64,000 nt of DNA from positions 558,001 through 622,000 of the forward strand of contig NZ_AP024714.1 in assembly GCF_033126985.1 (NCBI RefSeq), in the 5' to 3' direction. Below, one piece after another: positions 19,577-64,000 of this stretch. Every line of letters starts with the position of its first letter. Position 1 is the stretch's first letter. The translations under genes were made by a program, and so were the position numbers. This DNA comes from Methylomarinovum caldicuralii (GTDB taxonomy: Bacteria > Pseudomonadota > Gammaproteobacteria > Methylococcales > Methylothermaceae). Below the pieces are notes generated by a model. The model worked only from the letters and a program-made list of their open reading frames with translations. It was not told where the DNA came from and did not search any database.

Positions 19577-20371
19577 ATGCTGCCCTACCCCCGCATCGAT
19601 CCGGTCGCCGTCCAGCTGGGACCGCTCAAGGTCCACTGGTACGGTTTGATGTACGTCTTCGGCCTGCTGGGCGCCTGGTGGCTGGCTCGGTGGCGGGGGC
19701 CGCGGTTCGGCTGGCGCAAGGAGGAGATCGACGATCTGGTCTATTACGCCGCCTTCGGGGTGGTGCTGGGCGGGCGCACCGGCTACATGCTGTTCTACAA
19801 CCTGCCGACCCTGCTCCACGATCCGCTGAGTTTCTTCCGGGTCTGGGAAGGCGGGATGTCCTTCCACGGCGGCCTGCTTGGGGTGCTTGCGGCCGTGGCG
19901 CTGTTCGCCCGCAAGTACGGCCGCGCCTTCTGGGAGGTGACCGACTTCATCGCCCCCTTCGTTCCCATCGGGTTGTTCTTCGGCCGCATCGGCAATTTCA
20001 TCAACGGCGAACTGTGGGGCAAGGTCAGCGATGTCCCCTGGTCCATGGTATTCCCTACCGGCGGCCCGCTGCCACGCCATCCTTCCCAGCTCTACGAAGC
20101 CTCGCTCGAAGGGATCGCCCTGTTCGCGATCCTGTGGTGGTACTCCGCCAAACCCCGGCCGAGGATGGCGGTTTCCGGCCTGTTTCTGCTGGGCTACGGC
20201 GTTTTCCGTTTTCTGGTGGAGTTCATCCGCGAGCCCGACGCCCACATCGGCTATCTGGCCTTCGGCTGGGTGACCATGGGCCAGGTGCTGTCGCTGCCGA
20301 TGATCGTGGCCGGAACCTTGCTGCTGTGGTGGGCCCATCGCCGGGAGAACGCCCATGCGCCCTTATCTTGA
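19577..20371 (+). CDS. lgt: Prolipoprotein diacylglyceryl transferase
   Basis: Transfers diacylglycerol from phosphatidylglycerol to the lipobox cysteine of prelipoproteins in the inner membrane. 264 residues with about seven membrane helices. Conserved motifs: the HWYGLMY start, [21 protein letters not shown] (with the essential His) and the Lgt signature [13 protein letters not shown]. The 3' end overlaps thyA by 17 bases, forming the common lgt-thyA-folA cluster, with gyrB just upstream. Confidence 0.97.
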
Positions 20372-21149
20372 TCTTCTCCGGGACATCCTCGAGCACGGGA
20401 CTCCCAAGGACGACCGCACCGGCACCGGCACTCTCAGCGTGTTCGGCCGCCAGCTGCGCTTCGACCTGACAACGGGCTTCCCTCTCCTGACCACCAAGAA
20501 ACTGCACTGGCCTTCCATCGTCCACGAGCTGCTGTGGTTCCTGTCCGGCAGCACCAACATCCGCTATCTGCACGACCACAAGGTCACCATCTGGGACGAA
20601 TGGGCAGACGACGACGGCGAGCTGGGACCGGTCTACGGCAAGCAGTGGCGCGCCTGGGAGACGCCGGACGGCCGCACCATCGACCAGCTCGCCGAGGTGG
20701 TAGCGACGATCCGCCGCGATCCCGACTCCCGCCGCCTGCTGGTGAGCGCCTGGAACGTGGCTGACATAGGACGCATGGCGCTGCCGCCGTGCCACTACAG
20801 CTTCCAGTTCTACGTCGCCGCAGGGAAGCTCTCGTGCCTGTTCAACATGCGTTCGGTGGACGTGTTTCTGGGCCTGCCCTTCAACATCGCCAGCTACGCC
20901 CTGCTGACCCACATGGTGGCCCAGCAATGCGACCTGGCGCCGGGGGAGCTGATCTGGAGCGGCGGCGACGTCCACCTCTACCGCAACCACCTCGAGCAAG
21001 CCCGGCTGCAGCTGGGCCGCCAGCCTTACCCGCCGCCCCGGCTGGAGATCCTGCGCCGGCCGCCAAGCCTGTTCGCTTACCGCTTCGAGGACTTCCGCCT
21101 CCACGACTATCGGGCCCATCCCCACATCAAGGCGCCGGTGGCGGTATGA
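20355..21149 (+). CDS. thyA: Thymidylate synthase
   Basis: Methylates dUMP to dTMP with methylene-tetrahydrofolate. 264 residues, the size of E. coli ThyA. It begins [15 protein letters not shown]. The phosphate-binding Arg is in [10 protein letters not shown], and the active-site cysteine is in [12 protein letters not shown] (about residue 146). [19 protein letters not shown] and the C-terminal IKAPVAV complete the fold. It overlaps lgt upstream and folA downstream (ATGA), implying translational coupling. Confidence 0.98.
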
Positions 21150-21673
21150 GGGGGCCGAGCCGTATCAGCCTCATCGTCGCCATGGCCCGGGGGCGGGTCA
21201 TCGGCCACCGGGGGCAGATGCCCTGGCACCTGTCCGAGGATCTCAGGCGCTTCCGCCGCATCACCTGGGGCAAGCCTATCCTGATGGGGCGGCGCACCTT
21301 CGAGGCCATCGGCCGCCCCCTGCCGGGACGGCTCAACATCGTGCTGTCGCACTCGCCGGACTTCCGTCCCAACGGCTGCCGGGTGGCGAGCTCTCTGGAA
21401 GCAGCGCTGGCACTGGCTGAAGACCAGGAACTGATGGTCATCGGCGGCAGCCACGTCTACCGCCATCTGCTGCCGCAGGCGGATCTGCTCTATCTCACCC
21501 TGATCGACGCCGATTTCCCCGGCGATACCTTCTTCCCTCCGTGGGATGCGGAACAGTGGCAGGAAATCGAACGGGAGGAACGGGCGGCAGGGGCCGCTTT
21601 CCCACACCCTTACCGCTTCGTAACCCTGCGGCGGATCAGCCCGGCTTGCGGTAGCAGGGACAGTCGATACTGA
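21146..21673 (+). CDS. folA: Dihydrofolate reductase
   Basis: Regenerates tetrahydrofolate from the dihydrofolate made by ThyA. 175 residues. Seen: [27 protein letters not shown] with the catalytic acidic residue region, [16 protein letters not shown] for NADPH binding, and [13 protein letters not shown]. The ATG overlaps the thyA stop. The 3' end runs 38 bases into convergent apaH, so its last residues (GSRDSRY) may be an unusual extension. Confidence 0.95.
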
Positions 21674-57402: not shown

Positions 57403-58680
57403 TCAATTGTAAGCCCATTCCTGCCACAGCAATATCGCGATGCCGACGGCGATCTGCCCCAGGAACACGCCGCCGACGGCCGTTCCCAGCCGCCAGCCGC
57501 CAATGACCGCCGCCATGCCGCCTTTCACCAAGGTGTTGACCACTGCCGCCAGCAGGATCCCCCGCACCGCTACCGCCAGCAGCGCCGGATCCTCCGCCAG
57601 CCGTGTCAGCGACAGGGTGATGGCGTCCACGTCGGTCAGCCCCGACAGCACCGCCGTCAGATAGACCCCGGCCTCGCCGATCCATTGGCGCAGCACCTGG
57701 GTCAGCCACAGGATGAAGGCGAGAAAGAGACCGAATCCCAAGGCGGTGTCCAGCTCGAAGGGATTGCGCAGCCCGCTCTGGGCCCCGGAGACCGCTGCCT
57801 GCCCGTCCCGGCGGCGCACCAGCTGCCAGGTCCCCAGATAGCCGGCAGCGGTCATGGCCAGCAACGGCGCGGCCAGATACTCCGTCAACAAAGGCCGCAG
57901 CAGCAAGGTGACGATCAGGATGCGCACGAACATGGTGGTGGAGGCGATGACGATCCCGCCCGCCAGCAAACGCTCGCTTCCCGGCTGCAGGCGGGCCAGC
58001 CGCGAAAGGTTCAAGGTCACGGCGGTGGAGGAAACCAGCCCGCCCAGCAGGCCAGTCAGCAGGACGCCCCGGCCGGGACCGGCGATCTTGATGGCGAAAT
58101 AGCCCAGAAAGGAGATCGCCGAGATCAGCACCACCATCCACCAGATCTCGTAAGGGTTGAGAGCGTTCCAGGGATCGAAGGTCCGGTTCGGCAGAATCGG
58201 CAGCAGCACCACCGAGATCAGCAGCAGTTTGAAGACCGCCTGCAGTTCCTCCGGCGACAGCCGCCGGATCCAGGCATGCAGCACCGGCTTGGTGCCGAGG
58301 ACGATGGTGGTGATGACCGCGGCGGCGGCAGCCAGTTTGACATGCGGCGTCATCGTCAGCGCCCCCAGGACGAAGGCGATGAAGGCCGCCACCTCGGTGG
58401 TGATGCCGTATTCCCCGGTCTTCTGGGCCTCCACGTAAGTGACCGCAGCGATCAGCACCCCCAGGCCGGCAAAGGCCAGGGTGATCACCCACAGGCTGGA
58501 CTCGCGCGCCAGCAGCATGGTCAGGGCGCCGAGCAGGGCGATGAGGCCGAAGGTGCGGATGCCGGCGATGCGCCGCCCCGGTTCCAGCTCGCGCTTGGAC
58601 CACCCCCGCTCCAGACCGATGAGGAACCCCAGCGCCAGAGCGATCAGCAGATTGCGGAACAGGATCAGATAGTCTTCCAT
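57403..58680 (-). CDS. MgtC/SapB and DUF4010 domain membrane protein
   Basis: 425 residues with about 12-13 hydrophobic segments. The MgtC-like N-terminus shows IALALGFLIGLERGW and GIRTFGLIALLGALT. The DUF4010 part follows, with GLLGGLVSSTAVTLNLSRLA and AVLSGLTDVDAITLS. A transporter-like role is likely, substrate unknown. It is divergent from the Lon-like protease, 97 bases away. Confidence 0.85.
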   Translation of the reverse strand: MEDYLILFRNLLIALALGFLIGLERGWSKRELEPGRRIAGIRTFGLIALLGALTMLLARESSLWVITLAFAGLGVLIAAVTYVEAQKTGEYGITTEVAAFIAFVLGALTMTPHVKLAAAAAVITTIVLGTKPVLHAWIRRLSPEELQAVFKLLLISVVLLPILPNRTFDPWNALNPYEIWWMVVLISAISFLGYFAIKIAGPGRGVLLTGLLGGLVSSTAVTLNLSRLARLQPGSERLLAGGIVIASTTMFVRILIVTLLLRPLLTEYLAAPLLAMTAAGYLGTWQLVRRRDGQAAVSGAQSGLRNPFELDTALGFGLFLAFILWLTQVLRQWIGEAGVYLTAVLSGLTDVDAITLSLTRLAEDPALLAVAVRGILLAAVVNTLVKGGMAAVIGGWRLGTAVGGVFLGQIAVGIAILLWQEWAYN

Positions 58681-58777
58681 GTCGTTTCCCTGGAAAATCT
58701 CCGAATCTCAGCATAGCGTTTGCCCCGCCGGCGGCGCAAACCTACAATGCCAGGGAAAACATCACGGAGGAGCGCCC

Positions 58778-61204
58778 ATGGACCCGCACGAACCGCTTTC
58801 CCCCGATCAGCTTTACCGTGCCTGCGACCCGGCCGACTTCCCTTTCTCCACCACCGAGGAACTGCCCGACGTTCCCCTGGTGTTCGACCAGCGCCGCGCC
58901 ATGGAGGCCCTGCATTTCGGCGTGGACATGGCCGATCCCGGCTTCAACGTCTTCGTGCCTGGCCCCACCGGTGTCGGCAAGCAGACCGCGGTCACGGACG
59001 TGGTGAGCCAGCGGGCCGCCCAGCGACCGGCGCCTCCGGACTGGTGCTACCTGCACAACTTCAAGGACCCGTTCAAACCCAAGCGGCTGCAATTGCCGGC
59101 CGGGCACGGCCGCCGGTTGCAGCAGGACATCCAGGAACTGATCGACGAGCTGCGCACCGCCATTCCGGCCGCTTTCGAAGGCGAGGAATACCGCGCCCGG
59201 GTGGAGGAACTGGAGCAGTCCGCCCGCGAGCGCGAAGCCAGGGCCATCGAGGAACTGCGCCAGAAGGCCCGGGAGAAGGGCATCGCCCTGCTGGAAACCC
59301 CCACCGGCTTCGCCTTCGCCCCCCTGACCCACGAAGGTCAGGTAATGCCGCCCCAGGTCTTCAACCAGCTGCCGCCGGAGGTGCAGAAGCAGATCGAGGC
59401 CACGGTCGCCGAACTGCAGCAGGAACTGCAAAAGGTGGTGCGCCAGTTCCCCGCCTGGCGTAAGGAAATGCGCGAGAAGCTGCGCCAGCTCAACCGCCAG
59501 GTCACCCAGAACGCCGTCGGCCATCTGATCGAGGACCTGCGGGAGAAGTACCGGGAATTCGAGGGCGTGCTGGCCCACCTGGAGGCGATCCAGCAGGACA
59601 TCGTCGACCACCTGGAGGATTTCCTGCCCCAGCCGGCCCCGCCCATCCCGCTGCCCTTCCTCATCAACCGGGCCGAGGAACGCCTCAAGCACTACCGGGT
59701 CCACCTGCTGGTGGATCACAGCGAAACCCGCGGCGCCCCGGTGGTCCACGAAGCGCTCCCCAACCACACCAACCTGATCGGCCGCATCGATTACCGCGCC
59801 TTCATGGGCACCCTGGTGACCGACTTCTCCATGATCAAACCCGGCGCCCTGCACCGGGCCAACGGCGGTTTCCTGATCCTCGACGCCCGCAAGGTGCTGC
59901 TTCAGCCCCACGCCTGGGACACCCTCAAGCGCACCCTTCAGGCCGGCGAGATCCGGATCGAATCGCTGGAACGCACCCTGAGCCTGATCAGCACCGTGCC
60001 GTTGGAACCGGAGCCAATCCCCTTGAACGTGCGGGTGATCCTGCTCGGTGACCGCCTGCTCTACTACCTGCTCGACGCCCTCGATCCCGAATTCCGCGAT
60101 CTGTTCAAAGTCGCCGCCGATTTCGAGGAGGACCTGCCCCGCAGCCCGGAAACCCACCAGCTCTACGCCCGCGTGCTCGCCACCCTGGCGCGCAAGGAGA
60201 AACTGCTGCCGCTGGCGCGCGATGCGGTCATCCGCATGGTGGAGCAGGGAGCCCGCGAGGTGGAGGACGCCCACAAGGTCAGCGCCCATCTGCGCGGCGT
60301 TACCGATCTGCTCAAGGAAGCCGACTTCCGCGCCCGCCAGGCCGGGCGCGGACACATCACCCGGGCCGACGTGGAGGCGGCCATCGACGCCCGTATCGAT
60401 CGCAACAGCCGCCTGCGCGAGCGTATCCAGGAACTGATCGAGCGCGACGTTCTGCTGATCGACACTGAAGGCAGCCAGGTGGGCCAGATCAACGGACTGT
60501 CGGTGATCTCCCTGGGGGATTTCAGCTTCGGCCGCCCGTCGCGGATCACCGCCACCGCCCGTCTCGGCGACGGCAAGGTCATCGACATCGAACGCGAAAC
60601 CGAGCTGGGGGGCGCGATCCATTCCAAAGGGGTGATGATTCTGGCCAACTTCATGGCCGCCCGCTATGCCCGGGTCCAGCCCCTGTCCGTGGCCGCCAGC
60701 CTGGTGTTCGAACAATCCTACGGGCCGGTGGAGGGCGACAGCGCCTCGCTGGCCGAACTGTGCGCACTGCTGTCGGCGCTGGCGGACCTACCGCTGCGCC
60801 AGGATCTGGCGGTGACCGGCTCGGTCAGCCAGCACGGCAAGGTCCAGCCCATCGGCGGAGTCAACGAGAAGATCGAAGGCTTTTTCGACATCTGCCGCCG
60901 CAAGGGGCTGACCGGCACCCAAGGGGTCGTCATCCCCCAAGCCAACGTCCAGAACCTGATGCTGCGCCAGGACGTGGTGGCAGCGGCCCGCGACGGCAAA
61001 TTCCGCATCCACGCCGTCGCCACCGTGGATCAGGCCCTGGAGCTGCTGCTCGGCGTGCCCGCCGGGGAACGCGGTCCCGACGGGCGCTTCCCGCCCGAGA
61101 CGGTCAACGGCCGAGTGGAGCGGCAGCTGCAGGAATTCGCCGAACTGCGGCGCCGCTTCGCCAAGAGTAAGGATCAGGACAATCGCGGGGGCGAAGAGGC
61201 ATGA
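58778..61204 (+). CDS. Lon-like ATP-dependent protease (LonB/YcbZ type)
   Basis: 808 residues. N-terminal AAA region with Walker [12 protein letters not shown] at about 67, a long coiled-coil insertion (about 120-290), then ANGGFLILDARKVL. The Lon S16 protease domain has Ser in GDSASLAELCALL and Lys in GGVNEKIEGFFD. GGAGG precedes the ATG by 8 bases. It belongs to the proteobacterial Lon-related family whose substrates are poorly known. The stop overlaps the next gene (ATGA). Confidence 0.9.
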   Translation: MDPHEPLSPDQLYRACDPADFPFSTTEELPDVPLVFDQRRAMEALHFGVDMADPGFNVFVPGPTGVGKQTAVTDVVSQRAAQRPAPPDWCYLHNFKDPFKPKRLQLPAGHGRRLQQDIQELIDELRTAIPAAFEGEEYRARVEELEQSAREREARAIEELRQKAREKGIALLETPTGFAFAPLTHEGQVMPPQVFNQLPPEVQKQIEATVAELQQELQKVVRQFPAWRKEMREKLRQLNRQVTQNAVGHLIEDLREKYREFEGVLAHLEAIQQDIVDHLEDFLPQPAPPIPLPFLINRAEERLKHYRVHLLVDHSETRGAPVVHEALPNHTNLIGRIDYRAFMGTLVTDFSMIKPGALHRANGGFLILDARKVLLQPHAWDTLKRTLQAGEIRIESLERTLSLISTVPLEPEPIPLNVRVILLGDRLLYYLLDALDPEFRDLFKVAADFEEDLPRSPETHQLYARVLATLARKEKLLPLARDAVIRMVEQGAREVEDAHKVSAHLRGVTDLLKEADFRARQAGRGHITRADVEAAIDARIDRNSRLRERIQELIERDVLLIDTEGSQVGQINGLSVISLGDFSFGRPSRITATARLGDGKVIDIERETELGGAIHSKGVMILANFMAARYARVQPLSVAASLVFEQSYGPVEGDSASLAELCALLSALADLPLRQDLAVTGSVSQHGKVQPIGGVNEKIEGFFDICRRKGLTGTQGVVIPQANVQNLMLRQDVVAAARDGKFRIHAVATVDQALELLLGVPAGERGPDGRFPPETVNGRVERQLQEFAELRRRFAKSKDQDNRGGEEA

Positions 61205-61854
61205 ACCGGATCATCGTCGCCATCGATCTGCACTGCCGGCAGTACCGGGCCCTGGAGATCGGCGCCCGCCTGGCGCTGATCCAGCGCCGCGAGCTGACGG
61301 TGCTCCTCATCGAAAGCGTGGACCTGCAGCGGGCCGCCGAACTGCCCTGGGTGCGGGAGATCGACCGCCTGTCGGCCAGCCTGCAACCTTTCGATCCCCA
61401 AAGGCTGCGGCGCTGGTGGCAACAGCGCCGTCAGGAAATCGAACGCTGGCTGTCCCGCCACGCCCTGCCGGGCCAAATGCGGATCGAAACCGGCCGCTAT
61501 CCGGAAACCGCCCTGGCCTGGAGCCGGGACAGCGACCTGCTGGTGCTCGCCACCCCGGCGTCATACGCCGCCCGCACCCAGCCGCCGGTCTGGGTCTGGT
61601 ACGACGGCAGCGAGGCGGGGGAACGGGCCTTGCGGCTGGCCCGGGAACTGGCCGCCGCCGAAGGCTGTCCGCTGAGGGTCGTCGCCCCGCCCCAGCAGCA
61701 TCCCGAGCTGCCGGAACCGGTGACGCCGGTTCCTCCCGAACAGCTGGCCGACTTCCTCGCCGGCCGGGAATGCAGCGCCGTCGTCTGCCCCCGCAGTCAG
61801 CCCCGGGCCGCGCGGTTACCGCAGGTGGCGCGCTGCCCGGTGCTGCTGGTGTAG
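61201..61854 (+). CDS. Universal-stress-protein-like
   Basis: 217 residues. Starts MNRIIVAIDLHCRQYRALE, like the first strand of UspA; then RIETGRYPETALAWSRDSDLLVLATP and a second partial repeat WVWYDGSEAGERALRLARELA that ends CPVLLV. So it appears to hold one and a half UspA units. The nucleotide-binding GxxGxxS loop is not obvious. It is coupled to the Lon-like gene. Confidence 0.7.
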   Translation: MNRIIVAIDLHCRQYRALEIGARLALIQRRELTVLLIESVDLQRAAELPWVREIDRLSASLQPFDPQRLRRWWQQRRQEIERWLSRHALPGQMRIETGRYPETALAWSRDSDLLVLATPASYAARTQPPVWVWYDGSEAGERALRLARELAAAEGCPLRVVAPPQQHPELPEPVTPVPPEQLADFLAGRECSAVVCPRSQPRAARLPQVARCPVLLV

Positions 61855-61859
61855 CGGGC

Positions 61860-62771
61860 TCACACCCACTTGCGGGCGCGGTTGAAGGCCTCGTGGAAGT
61901 CGAAGTAAACCGGTTTCTCGGTCTGCAGCAGATCGCGCAGCATGGCGTTCTGGATTTTGTACTTGAGGTTGCCGACCGCCAGCGGACCGACCGCCACCGC
62001 GCCGGGGCTGTTGGGGGCGGTGCTCAGCGGCGTCCCCATGTCGCGGGGTTTGACGCCGGCGATCCCCGCCGGCGGCACCGCGTTGACGTCGCCGACTACC
62101 TTGAGGCGGCGGGCGTCTTCGAGGATTTCCTCGTCGAGGACCTGGATTCCGGCCTTGGTGGTGTTGAAGATGATGTCCGCCCGTCTCACCAGCCAGGCCT
62201 TGCTGGCCCCGGAGCTGGCGAAGGTTCCCTTGATGTTGCAGCCGCAGCGGCGGCTGTATTCCGAGGCGATCTGCATCGCCGTGTCCAGGCTCAGGTGATC
62301 GACGATGGTGACGTCGGCCCCCGCCAGGGCGGCGATGACGCCGGTGGAAATCCCCACCGGCCCGGTGCCGCCGAAGACGATGGCACGGCAGCCTTGCATC
62401 TCCAGCCCGTGTTTTTCCTTGAGCTGCTTCTCCACCGCCGCCACCAGCGCCGTGGCGGTGGTGAAAGCCCCGGACGGGTCGGCCAGAACAGAAACCTCAA
62501 AGGGCGGCACCATCGCCTTCTGGACGGTTTCCATCATGTCGAGGGCGAGGCCGATGTCGCGGCCGCCGATGAAGATGGCGGTCCGTTTCACCCCGGAGGG
62601 TCCGCGGGAGAAGATGATGTCCTGGGTCAGCCCGTAAACCTGATCCGGTTCGACATTGGCGTGGGGGAAGATCATGTCGAAACCGGCATCGACCGCCATG
62701 TTGATGTCGAACGGGCTGACCTGAGGCCGGGGGCTGAGCATGTGGAGTACGGTGCGCGTGGTCATCGGCAT
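61860..62771 (-). CDS. mtdB: Methylene-tetrahydromethanopterin dehydrogenase, MtdB-type (copy 2)
   Basis: Oxidises methylene-H4MPT with NAD(P)+ in formaldehyde oxidation. 303 residues. It begins with TVLHMLSPRPQVSPFDINMA, has IIFSRGPSGVKRTAIFIGGRD, DPSGAFTTATALVAAVE, the Rossmann GGTGPVGISTG and VVGDVNAVPPAGIAGVKP. It overlaps the stop of the upstream paralogue by one base (TAATG). It differs from that copy mainly in the cofactor domain (VDHLSLD versus LGRQQEK after the Rossmann strand), so cofactor preference may differ. An ATG two codons later is an alternative start. Confidence 0.88.
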   Translation of the reverse strand: MPMTTRTVLHMLSPRPQVSPFDINMAVDAGFDMIFPHANVEPDQVYGLTQDIIFSRGPSGVKRTAIFIGGRDIGLALDMMETVQKAMVPPFEVSVLADPSGAFTTATALVAAVEKQLKEKHGLEMQGCRAIVFGGTGPVGISTGVIAALAGADVTIVDHLSLDTAMQIASEYSRRCGCNIKGTFASSGASKAWLVRRADIIFNTTKAGIQVLDEEILEDARRLKVVGDVNAVPPAGIAGVKPRDMGTPLSTAPNSPGAVAVGPLAVGNLKYKIQNAMLRDLLQTEKPVYFDFHEAFNRARKWV

Positions 62772-63682
62772 TATCCTCGTTTGGCTTGAACGATTTCCCG
62801 GGCCGTTGCGAAGGCTTCGTCGAAGGCTAGATAGACCGGCTTTTCGGTTTCACGCATCTGTCTGAGCAGGCGGGCGTGGGTCTGGTATTTGATATTGCCG
62901 ATGGCCAGGGCACCGATGCCCACCGCCCCCGAGGGGGAATCCTCGATCGGCGCGCCGTCGGCCTGCGGGTCGATGCCGGCTATCCCTGGCGGCGGCACCG
63001 CGTTGACGTCGGCGGCTACCATCAGCTTGGTGGCGGCGGTGACCTGTTCGGCGGTCAGCAACTGAATGCCGGCCGCCCCGGTGGCGAAGATGACCTCGGC
63101 CTCCGGCAACAGCTCCGGCAGTTTGTCGTTGCCCAGCCCCTTGATGCGGGTCTGGCCCTGGCCGAAGAACTCATTGCACAGTTTGGCAATACGCTCGGAC
63201 TTTTCCTGCTGGCGGCCAAGGATGCTCACGTCGCAGCCGGCCTTGGCGCACAGGACCGCGGCGATCTGGCCCACGGGACCGGTGCCGGCGAGAATCAGCA
63301 CCTTGCAACCGCTCAGGGTGGTGTCGAACTTGTCCGCAAGTTCGCGCTCGGCGGCGGCGACCATGGCGGCGGCGGTGGTGAAAGCACCGGAGGGATCGGC
63401 CAGGACCGAAATCTCGAAGGGCGGCACCATCGAGGTGCGGGCGGTCTCGAGCATCTTCATCGCCGCCTCGGGATCGCGCCCGCCGATGAAGGCGGCGGTG
63501 CGCTTGACGCCCTTGGGTCCACGGGAGAAGATCGCATCCTGGATCAGGCCCTGAACCTCGCCTTCTTCCACCTGCAGGTACGGCATGGTTACCTGCCAGC
63601 CGGCGTCCTGGGCCATGTTGACATCGAAGGGGCTGAGATTCTTCTCCGTGGTGAGCATGTGAAGGATGTAGGGTTTTTCCAT
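62771..63682 (-). CDS. mtdB: Methylene-tetrahydromethanopterin dehydrogenase MtdB (copy 1)
   Basis: 303 residues, paralogue of the downstream gene. YILHMLTTEKNLSPFDVNMA, AIFSRGPKGVKRTAAFIGGRD, VLADPSGAFTTAAAMVAAAE, LAGTGPVGQIAAVL and AADVNAVPPPGIAGIDPQ match MtdB of methylotrophs. The Arg after the Rossmann strand (ILGRQQEK) fits NADP binding. Divergent from the RibD-type gene, 83 bases away. Which copy serves H4MPT and which might serve another pterin cannot be told here. Confidence 0.9.
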   Translation of the reverse strand: MEKPYILHMLTTEKNLSPFDVNMAQDAGWQVTMPYLQVEEGEVQGLIQDAIFSRGPKGVKRTAAFIGGRDPEAAMKMLETARTSMVPPFEISVLADPSGAFTTAAAMVAAAERELADKFDTTLSGCKVLILAGTGPVGQIAAVLCAKAGCDVSILGRQQEKSERIAKLCNEFFGQGQTRIKGLGNDKLPELLPEAEVIFATGAAGIQLLTAEQVTAATKLMVAADVNAVPPPGIAGIDPQADGAPIEDSPSGAVGIGALAIGNIKYQTHARLLRQMRETEKPVYLAFDEAFATAREIVQAKRG

Positions 63683-63765
63683 CGGACGGACTCTTGTTCT
63701 TGTTGACCGGAAACCGTTGCAGCGCGCCGCAGACGGCAGATTTCACCAATTATTACGTGGCCGAT

Positions 63766-64000
63766 ATGCAAAAACAAATTTTTCGTCTCTATCCCGCGCC
63801 CTTTGCGGAAGTCCCGCTGTCCGGGCTGTATCTGCAGCACCGGGTCTTCACGTTGGGATCGCCGCAAAAGCCTTTCGTCTATGCCAATTTCCTCGCCAGC
63901 CTCGACGGCCGCATCGCCCTGGAGGATCTGCACACGGGCCAGCCCTATCTGCCCAAGAGCCTGACCACCCCGGCCGACTTCCGCCTGTTTCTGGAGCTGG
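63766..64000 (+). CDS. RibD C-terminal-type (pyrimidine/dihydropterin) reductase, partial
   Basis: The first 78 residues are visible: MQKQIFRLYPAPF, then FVYANFLASLDGRIALED, the RibD_C/dihydrofolate-reductase-like NADPH-binding start. Next to mtdB, a role in tetrahydromethanopterin synthesis (a dihydromethanopterin-reductase-like step) is a reasonable guess. A riboflavin-type reductase is the alternative. The rest lies outside the window. Confidence 0.7.
   Translation, partial: MQKQIFRLYPAPFAEVPLSGLYLQHRVFTLGSPQKPFVYANFLASLDGRIALEDLHTGQPYLPKSLTTPADFRLFLEL

Follow-up and report, generated by a model that had tools for sequence, protein, structure and literature searches.

Putative NADP- and NAD-linked MtdB isozymes beside a candidate third class of dihydromethanopterin reductase in Methylomarinovum caldicuralii

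In methanotrophs the carbon of formaldehyde is carried by tetrahydromethanopterin (H4MPT). Two reductases are known for dihydromethanopterin, namely the flavoprotein DmrB (AfpA) and DmrA of Methylobacterium, which is described in PMC6193120 as an NADPH-dependent relative of dihydrofolate reductase (DHFR) and was studied there with dihydrosarcinapterin as a substrate analogue. Chistoserdova 2016 (PMC5020050) reports that Afp was not recognised in some Proteobacteria and treats DmrA as a non-homologous substitute in Methylobacterium. A pterin-reducing enzyme of the RibD_C fold also has a precedent, since RibD of Mycobacterium tuberculosis (Rv2671) is presented in PMC10812664 as a low-activity alternative dihydrofolate reductase. 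Searches of open-access text turned up no paper that assigns a RibD-like protein to H4MPT synthesis.

The genome of M. caldicuralii contains two tandem genes of the MtdB type, here called copies A and B, next to a divergent gene, R, encoding a RibD-like reductase. The best explanation of this arrangement, to which we assign a probability of roughly 0.6, is that the locus encodes NADP- and NAD-linked MtdB isozymes and, next to them, a dihydromethanopterin reductase of a third, unrelated class. The three enzymes would then have (dephospho-)tetrahydromethanopterin as their common cofactor. Methylene-H4MPT formed from formaldehyde would be oxidised to methenyl-H4MPT by B and A, with NADP+ and NAD+, respectively, as the hydride acceptor, so that the electrons of formaldehyde would be split between NADPH and NADH. 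R would reduce dihydromethanopterin to tetrahydromethanopterin, the last step of cofactor synthesis, in place of the flavoprotein DmrB or the DHFR relative DmrA. We infer the coenzyme actually used by each copy, the substrate and electron donor of R, and the co-expression of the genes.

Organisation of the locus

The window, that is, the whole stretch of 64,000 nucleotides that was analysed, corresponds to positions 558001-622000 of the single-contig genome of 2,694,844 bases. Near its end the minus strand carries copy B (62771..63682) and copy A (61860..62771), each an exact, intact open reading frame for an MtdB-type dehydrogenase of 303 amino acids, while the plus strand carries the first part (63766..64000) of R, a stand-alone RibD_C protein and candidate dihydromethanopterin reductase. 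R has 276 amino acids in all, and its gene ends beyond the window at genome position 622596. Copy B is upstream and is transcribed before copy A; the stop codon of B and the start codon of A overlap by one base in the sequence TAATG (62769..62773, minus strand), and an intergenic stretch of 83 bp (63683..63765) separates the divergent genes B and R. A start of R at an earlier TTG (63694) is less likely, because the alignments of its orthologues begin at 63766.

An earlier note on this DNA had described tandem mtdB paralogues divergent from a RibD-type reductase, and this description was borne out, as the reading frames are exact and the models PF09176 (Mpt_N) and PF01872 (RibD_C) were passed. 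The same note had spoken of a compact H4MPT locus, which proved too strong, since a search with further H4MPT marker proteins gave no match in the 64 kb window or in the next 16 kb, and with these markers a wider H4MPT island at this place was rejected. The MtdA of the genome is encoded elsewhere, at about 1272496-1273368, adjoining fchA.

Convergent with copy A are the genes of a LonB-like protease and then of a protein with a universal-stress-protein match (window 58679-61854), and the same two neighbours occur in a sibling genome (G005, locus L060). About 12 kb beyond R lies a gene for an AmoC/PmoC-domain protein (398 bits; genome 634869-635690), a solitary pmoC-like copy with no obvious pmoA or pmoB adjoining it in the list of open reading frames; its presence is in line with a methanotrophic organism.

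Cofactor and pterin sites of the MtdB pair

Both copies match Mpt_N (127.3 bits for A and 116.8 bits for B; cut-off 27 bits). The identity is 48% between the two copies and about 33% between either of them and the MtdA of the genome, from which they are distinct in the tree, where the MtdA clade is separated from the rest with support of 100/100. Residues of the MtdB type are present on the pterin side of both copies, and A and B are predicted to be methylene-H4MPT dehydrogenases of the MtdB type.

The earlier note had pointed to a difference between the copies around the dinucleotide site, LGRQQEK in B versus VDHLSLD in A. Both motifs were recovered, and in the alignment they fall on the NADP site of MtdA, which follows the second strand of the dinucleotide fold. 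Residues were counted in 124 rows (123 plus the MtdA of 1lu9), sequences covering fewer than 240 query residues being left out of the counts and of the tree. At the place corresponding to Gly151-Arg152 of MtdA, all 47 A-type sequences have Asp (Asp158 in copy A), whereas the B-type sequences have Gly (45/45), followed by Arg (45/45) and Gln (44/45), with Lys (43/45) or Arg (2/45) four places after the first Arg; the corresponding residues of copy B are Gly156-Arg157 and Lys161. In the NADP enzyme MtdA the same places are occupied by Arg (9/9) and by Lys or Arg (9/9). An acidic residue at this site generally favours NAD in such folds and a basic one NADP, by which rule A would be of the NAD type and B of the NADP type. 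The proposal of different cofactors made in the earlier note thus gains support at the level of sequence; the rule is no proof of the coenzyme, because the single MtdBs of other bacteria have mixed residues at this site.

Pro17 (47/47 A-type and 45/45 B-type), Phe or Tyr100 (all sequences of both types) and Tyr257 (46/47 and 45/45) are common to the two types and unlike those of MtdA. At position 260, Gln occurs in 47/47 A-type sequences, Gln (37) or His (8) in the B-type ones and His in 9/9 MtdAs. In the structure of MtdA these positions face the pterin. Lys256 and the TT motif, Thr101-Thr102, are invariant. Since the residues on the pterin side agree in A and B and are unlike those of MtdA, the difference between the copies lies on the coenzyme side. 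The earlier note had also considered different pterins, which would mean that one copy acts with H4MPT and the other with H4F. The identity of only 48% between A and B would suit this reading, but the catalytic residues and the pterin-side ones by which MtdB differs from MtdA are common to both copies, and MtdA beside fchA would cover H4F; a division of the two pterins between A and B is therefore highly improbable.

The pair was followed through a sample of 201 Methylococcales genomes, among which Mpt_N was found in 178, mostly with three matches each. The domain also marks MtdA and alone is no proof of H4MPT use; in G002, G076, G175 and G199, four genomes with a single Mpt_N match that were checked, this match is MtdA (68-72% identical to the MtdA of M. 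caldicuralii). Each of the first 30 loci fetched, the best-scoring ones from 30 genomes, has one A-type and one B-type copy (30/30), and in 58/58 loci with both the two genes share a strand, with B upstream, some genomes being represented repeatedly. Two loci, L086 (genome G011) and L080 (at a contig end), are exceptions with an A-type copy and no B in the DNA examined. The complete genome G011 contains five Mpt_N genes (C1:450452, 1961867, 2503382, 2504438 and 3046037).

In a tree of 102 proteins, obtained after removal of 21 near-duplicate rows of 123, the B-type copies are united in one clade (100/99), which is nested in a larger group (98/93) together with five single MtdBs of beta- and gammaproteobacteria, and the A-type copies form a separate group with less support (67/97). 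A recent local duplication of mtdB was ruled out, as the two types are separate groups across the order. A single clade of A and B was not rejected (AU p 0.329), so that the split may have occurred within the order or earlier.

The joint retention of A and B in each of the 58 loci where both were seen, and the translational linkage of their genes, would also fit subunits of one enzyme or near-redundant isozymes without a coenzyme difference, in which the residues of the cofactor site have drifted, as they vary in the MtdBs of other bacteria. However, both copies keep the invariant Lys256 and the TT motif, and the full fixation of the cofactor-site residues in each clade (47/47 and 45/45) argues against drift. 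We consider this alternative unlikely, and prefer isozymes linked to NADP and NAD.

Relationship and distribution of the RibD-like reductase

R matches RibD_C (PF01872) with 34.2 bits against a cut-off of 24.1, and the same model is matched at E 0.001 by 28/28 of its relatives. Its scores with the models of riboflavin synthesis are far below the cut-offs (ribD_Cterm, 47.6 bits against 150.15; RibD, 18.6 against 156.35). R consists of the RibD_C domain only, lacking the combination of deaminase and reductase that defines RibD, and a protein with both domains is encoded in a 413-codon frame at genome position 1401232. The model scores and this separate gene rule out R as the riboflavin RibD. A firm grouping with RibD, named in the earlier note as the result that would speak against its proposal, was thus not obtained, as judged from domain models and gene content rather than from a tree.

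R is also not a DmrA-type enzyme, being no member of the DHFR_1 family (PF00186); the single DHFR matched by that model in the genome is FolA. Its gene, folA (inside window 21119-21673, plus strand), follows thyA (window 20355-21149, plus strand), both being ordinary folate genes, so R is not needed as the folate reductase of the genome and was rejected as the only one. No homology of R to DmrB was found, the RibD_C and riboflavin-reductase models being the only ones that match it. The genome contains one R, no DmrB and one DHFR. As DmrB and a second DHFR match are both missing, R alone of the three types of reductase is a candidate in this genome.

The AlphaFold model of an orthologue of R from the Methylothermaceae (locus L164) has a mean pLDDT of 86.8 and a pTM of 0.86, with residues 44-48 below 50. 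It aligned best with the dihydropteridine-bound Rv2671 (Z 20.2 over 230 residues, rmsd 3.1), with which archaeal Rib7 was tied (Z 19.5); Z values to the RibD/Rib7 entries were 15-20, and the best DHFR reached 12.3. In Foldseek the top rank went to Rib7, and Rv2671 came fourth. Asp71 of R is invariant among the sequences compared (28/28) and corresponds to Asp33 in the Rib7 of M. mazei, the residue mutated in 5xv0 and 5xv2. The predicted fold common to R and Rv2671/Rib7 does not in itself show a function.

The neighbourhood of R differs between groups of bacteria. Two peptide patterns retrieved 122 relatives of R from the named genome collection, and among the best 80 of these 122, which were kept, the labels are Azospirillum, other Rhodospirillales and Methylococcales, with some relatives in drafts labelled Chromatiales, Thiotrichales, Methyloversatilis, Methylophaga or Gammaproteobacteria. 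H4MPT markers were sought at all 80 loci. At least one H4MPT gene occurs in 16 of the 22 Azospirillum-like loci (L138-L159) in the DNA examined; in the 58 others, which are gammaproteobacterial, the mtdB pair adjoins R in four and another marker is present in two, one of them weak. Within the Methylococcales, R adjoins B in 9/9 fetched loci of families f1, f2 and f5 (L060-L064, L067, L081, L083 and L084), and is not beside B in the f3 locus L085 or in any of the 14 loci of f4 and f8. Several Methylococcaceae loci have a dihydroneopterin aldolase match near R; in L194 the gene sizes fit folB among housekeeping genes.

Among 72,556 plasmids, R was found on nine, all of Azospirillum, and on the two that were opened it lies among fae, mch, mtdB, fhc and H4MPT synthesis genes. 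The MtdB query matched 36 plasmids, of which that of Methylobacterium bullatum (29.9%) was set aside because its protein appears to be MtdA. The remaining 35 comprise 26 with DmrB and no R, eight with R and no DmrB, one with both and none with neither, the R side of this comparison being the one genus Azospirillum. On the plasmid with both, from A. lipoferum 4B, mtdB is present twice; one copy lies about 9 kb from DmrB and the second about 10 kb from R. Close linkage of DmrB to mtdB is not obligatory, the distance in Thiodictyon being some 270 kb.

For 28 of the 80 kept loci, the genome was further searched for Mpt_N and DmrB. All 28 contain Mpt_N, although in G617 and G624 the positions of the matches are identical to those in G175 and G076, which yielded MtdA only. 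Strong DmrB matches were obtained in six of these genomes, namely four of Azospirillum, that of Methylotuvimicrobium buryatense and one draft, and three more have DmrB matches of E 8e-5 or weaker. In each of the four Azospirillum genomes Mpt_N is encoded twice, and about 9 kb separate DmrB from the second gene.

Across the order, the 178 Mpt_N-positive genomes include 94 with DmrB only, 57 with R only, 20 with both, two of these having weaker DmrB matches, and seven with neither (Fisher p 1.6e-21, ignoring kinship); after removal of the four MtdA-only genomes the numbers are 93, 55, 20 and six of 174. Kinship explains part of this pattern, as R and DmrB follow family lines: in families f1-f5, R occurs in 47/51 genomes and DmrB in 0/51, while family f8 (n=127) comprises 94 genomes with DmrB only, ten with R only, 20 with both and three with neither. 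A phylogeny-corrected test on 58 labelled rows contained five independent pairs, in which DmrB changed the opposite way to R in 2.5 on average and the same way in 0.0; it was underpowered and not significant (p 0.25-1). Draft G016 has an R fragment and no Mpt_N match, and drafts G175 and G076 have R and only MtdA. In a DmrB-bearing genome (G053, L252, C14:66900-68200), the R sequence is split over two frames that overlap.

A further set comprised 48 genomes, of which 46 have Mpt_N. Among these 46, R alone occurs in 18, DmrB alone in 16, both in three (one weak) and neither in nine; without the MtdA-only genomes the counts are 16, 15, three and eight of 42. Six of the nine with neither (G228, G343, G351, G367, G471 and G592) have an extra, very divergent DHFR-family match of 22-30 bits, which is probably DmrA. 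That of G592 (28.9 bits, C8:62397-62759), a DmrA candidate in a genome without R and DmrB, resembles the match in the Methylobacterium-like genomes, which belong to a different family. G002 has only MtdA. In G101 and G295 Mpt_N is present and no R, DmrB or second DHFR match was found, so these are either incomplete assemblies or carriers of a further type of reductase.

The same data might be read in another way, with R acting elsewhere in pterin or pyrimidine metabolism, as a back-up dihydrofolate reductase or in another step of H4MPT or methanofuran synthesis, and with its alternation with DmrB reflecting two inherited types of cluster. The adherence of R and DmrB to family lines, the separation of most gammaproteobacterial R loci from H4MPT genes, and the two R-bearing drafts (G001 and G175) in which no DHFR_1 match was found are in line with it, as is the closest structural match, Rv2671, characterised in PMC10812664 as a weak dihydrofolate reductase. 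Against it, FolA (DHFR_1) is present in 19/21 R-bearing genomes of the 48-genome set, M. caldicuralii included, and the R-only genomes are otherwise without DmrB, M. caldicuralii lacking a second DHFR match as well. Furthermore, A. lipoferum 4B and four more Azospirillum genomes have one R, one DmrB and two mtdB genes, the second of which lies about 9 kb from DmrB. A role of R elsewhere appears possible, if rather doubtful, and a role as dihydromethanopterin reductase is favoured. The earlier suggestion that the reductase takes part in making the same cofactor is probably right, being supported by the gene clusters and by the replacement of DmrB.

Comparison with described enzymes

The strongest new claim, which rests on gene content and linkage, is that R probably represents a third class of dihydromethanopterin reductase. 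The fuller proposal has a somewhat better than even chance of being correct: a third, non-homologous reductase recruited from the RibD_C superfamily would serve both Methylococcales methanotrophs and Azospirillum, with individual clusters having exchanged it for DmrB or the reverse, and the MtdBs next to it would form an NADP/NAD pair that is kept throughout the order and divides the electrons of formaldehyde between the two nicotinamide pools. If so, R would fill the Afp gap for Methylococcus, Methylocaldum and their relatives, and the MtdB pair would tell metabolic models of methanotrophs where the electrons of formaldehyde go.

The copies A and B are like MtdB in their Mpt_N domain, length, invariant Lys256 and pterin-side residues, and B groups with the single MtdBs of beta- and gammaproteobacteria (98/93). 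They differ from these in being two fixed tandem types with opposite residues at the cofactor site, where the single MtdBs are mixed. MtdA (1lu9 and 6tge) belongs to the same fold family, and B has the Arg and the Lys/Arg of its NADP site; however, both copies are only about 33% identical to MtdA, have other pterin-side residues and lie outside its clade (100/100). R resembles Rv2671 and archaeal Rib7 in having the RibD_C fold without a deaminase domain, but in the structure alignments it is only 16-20% identical to these proteins, which belong to other pathways. DmrA of Methylobacterium presumably catalyses the same reaction as R, but is a member of the DHFR_1 family, whereas R is a RibD_C protein. 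Finally, DmrB/AfpA occupies the same genomic niche as R, but belongs to a flavoprotein family without a sequence match to R in the searches made.
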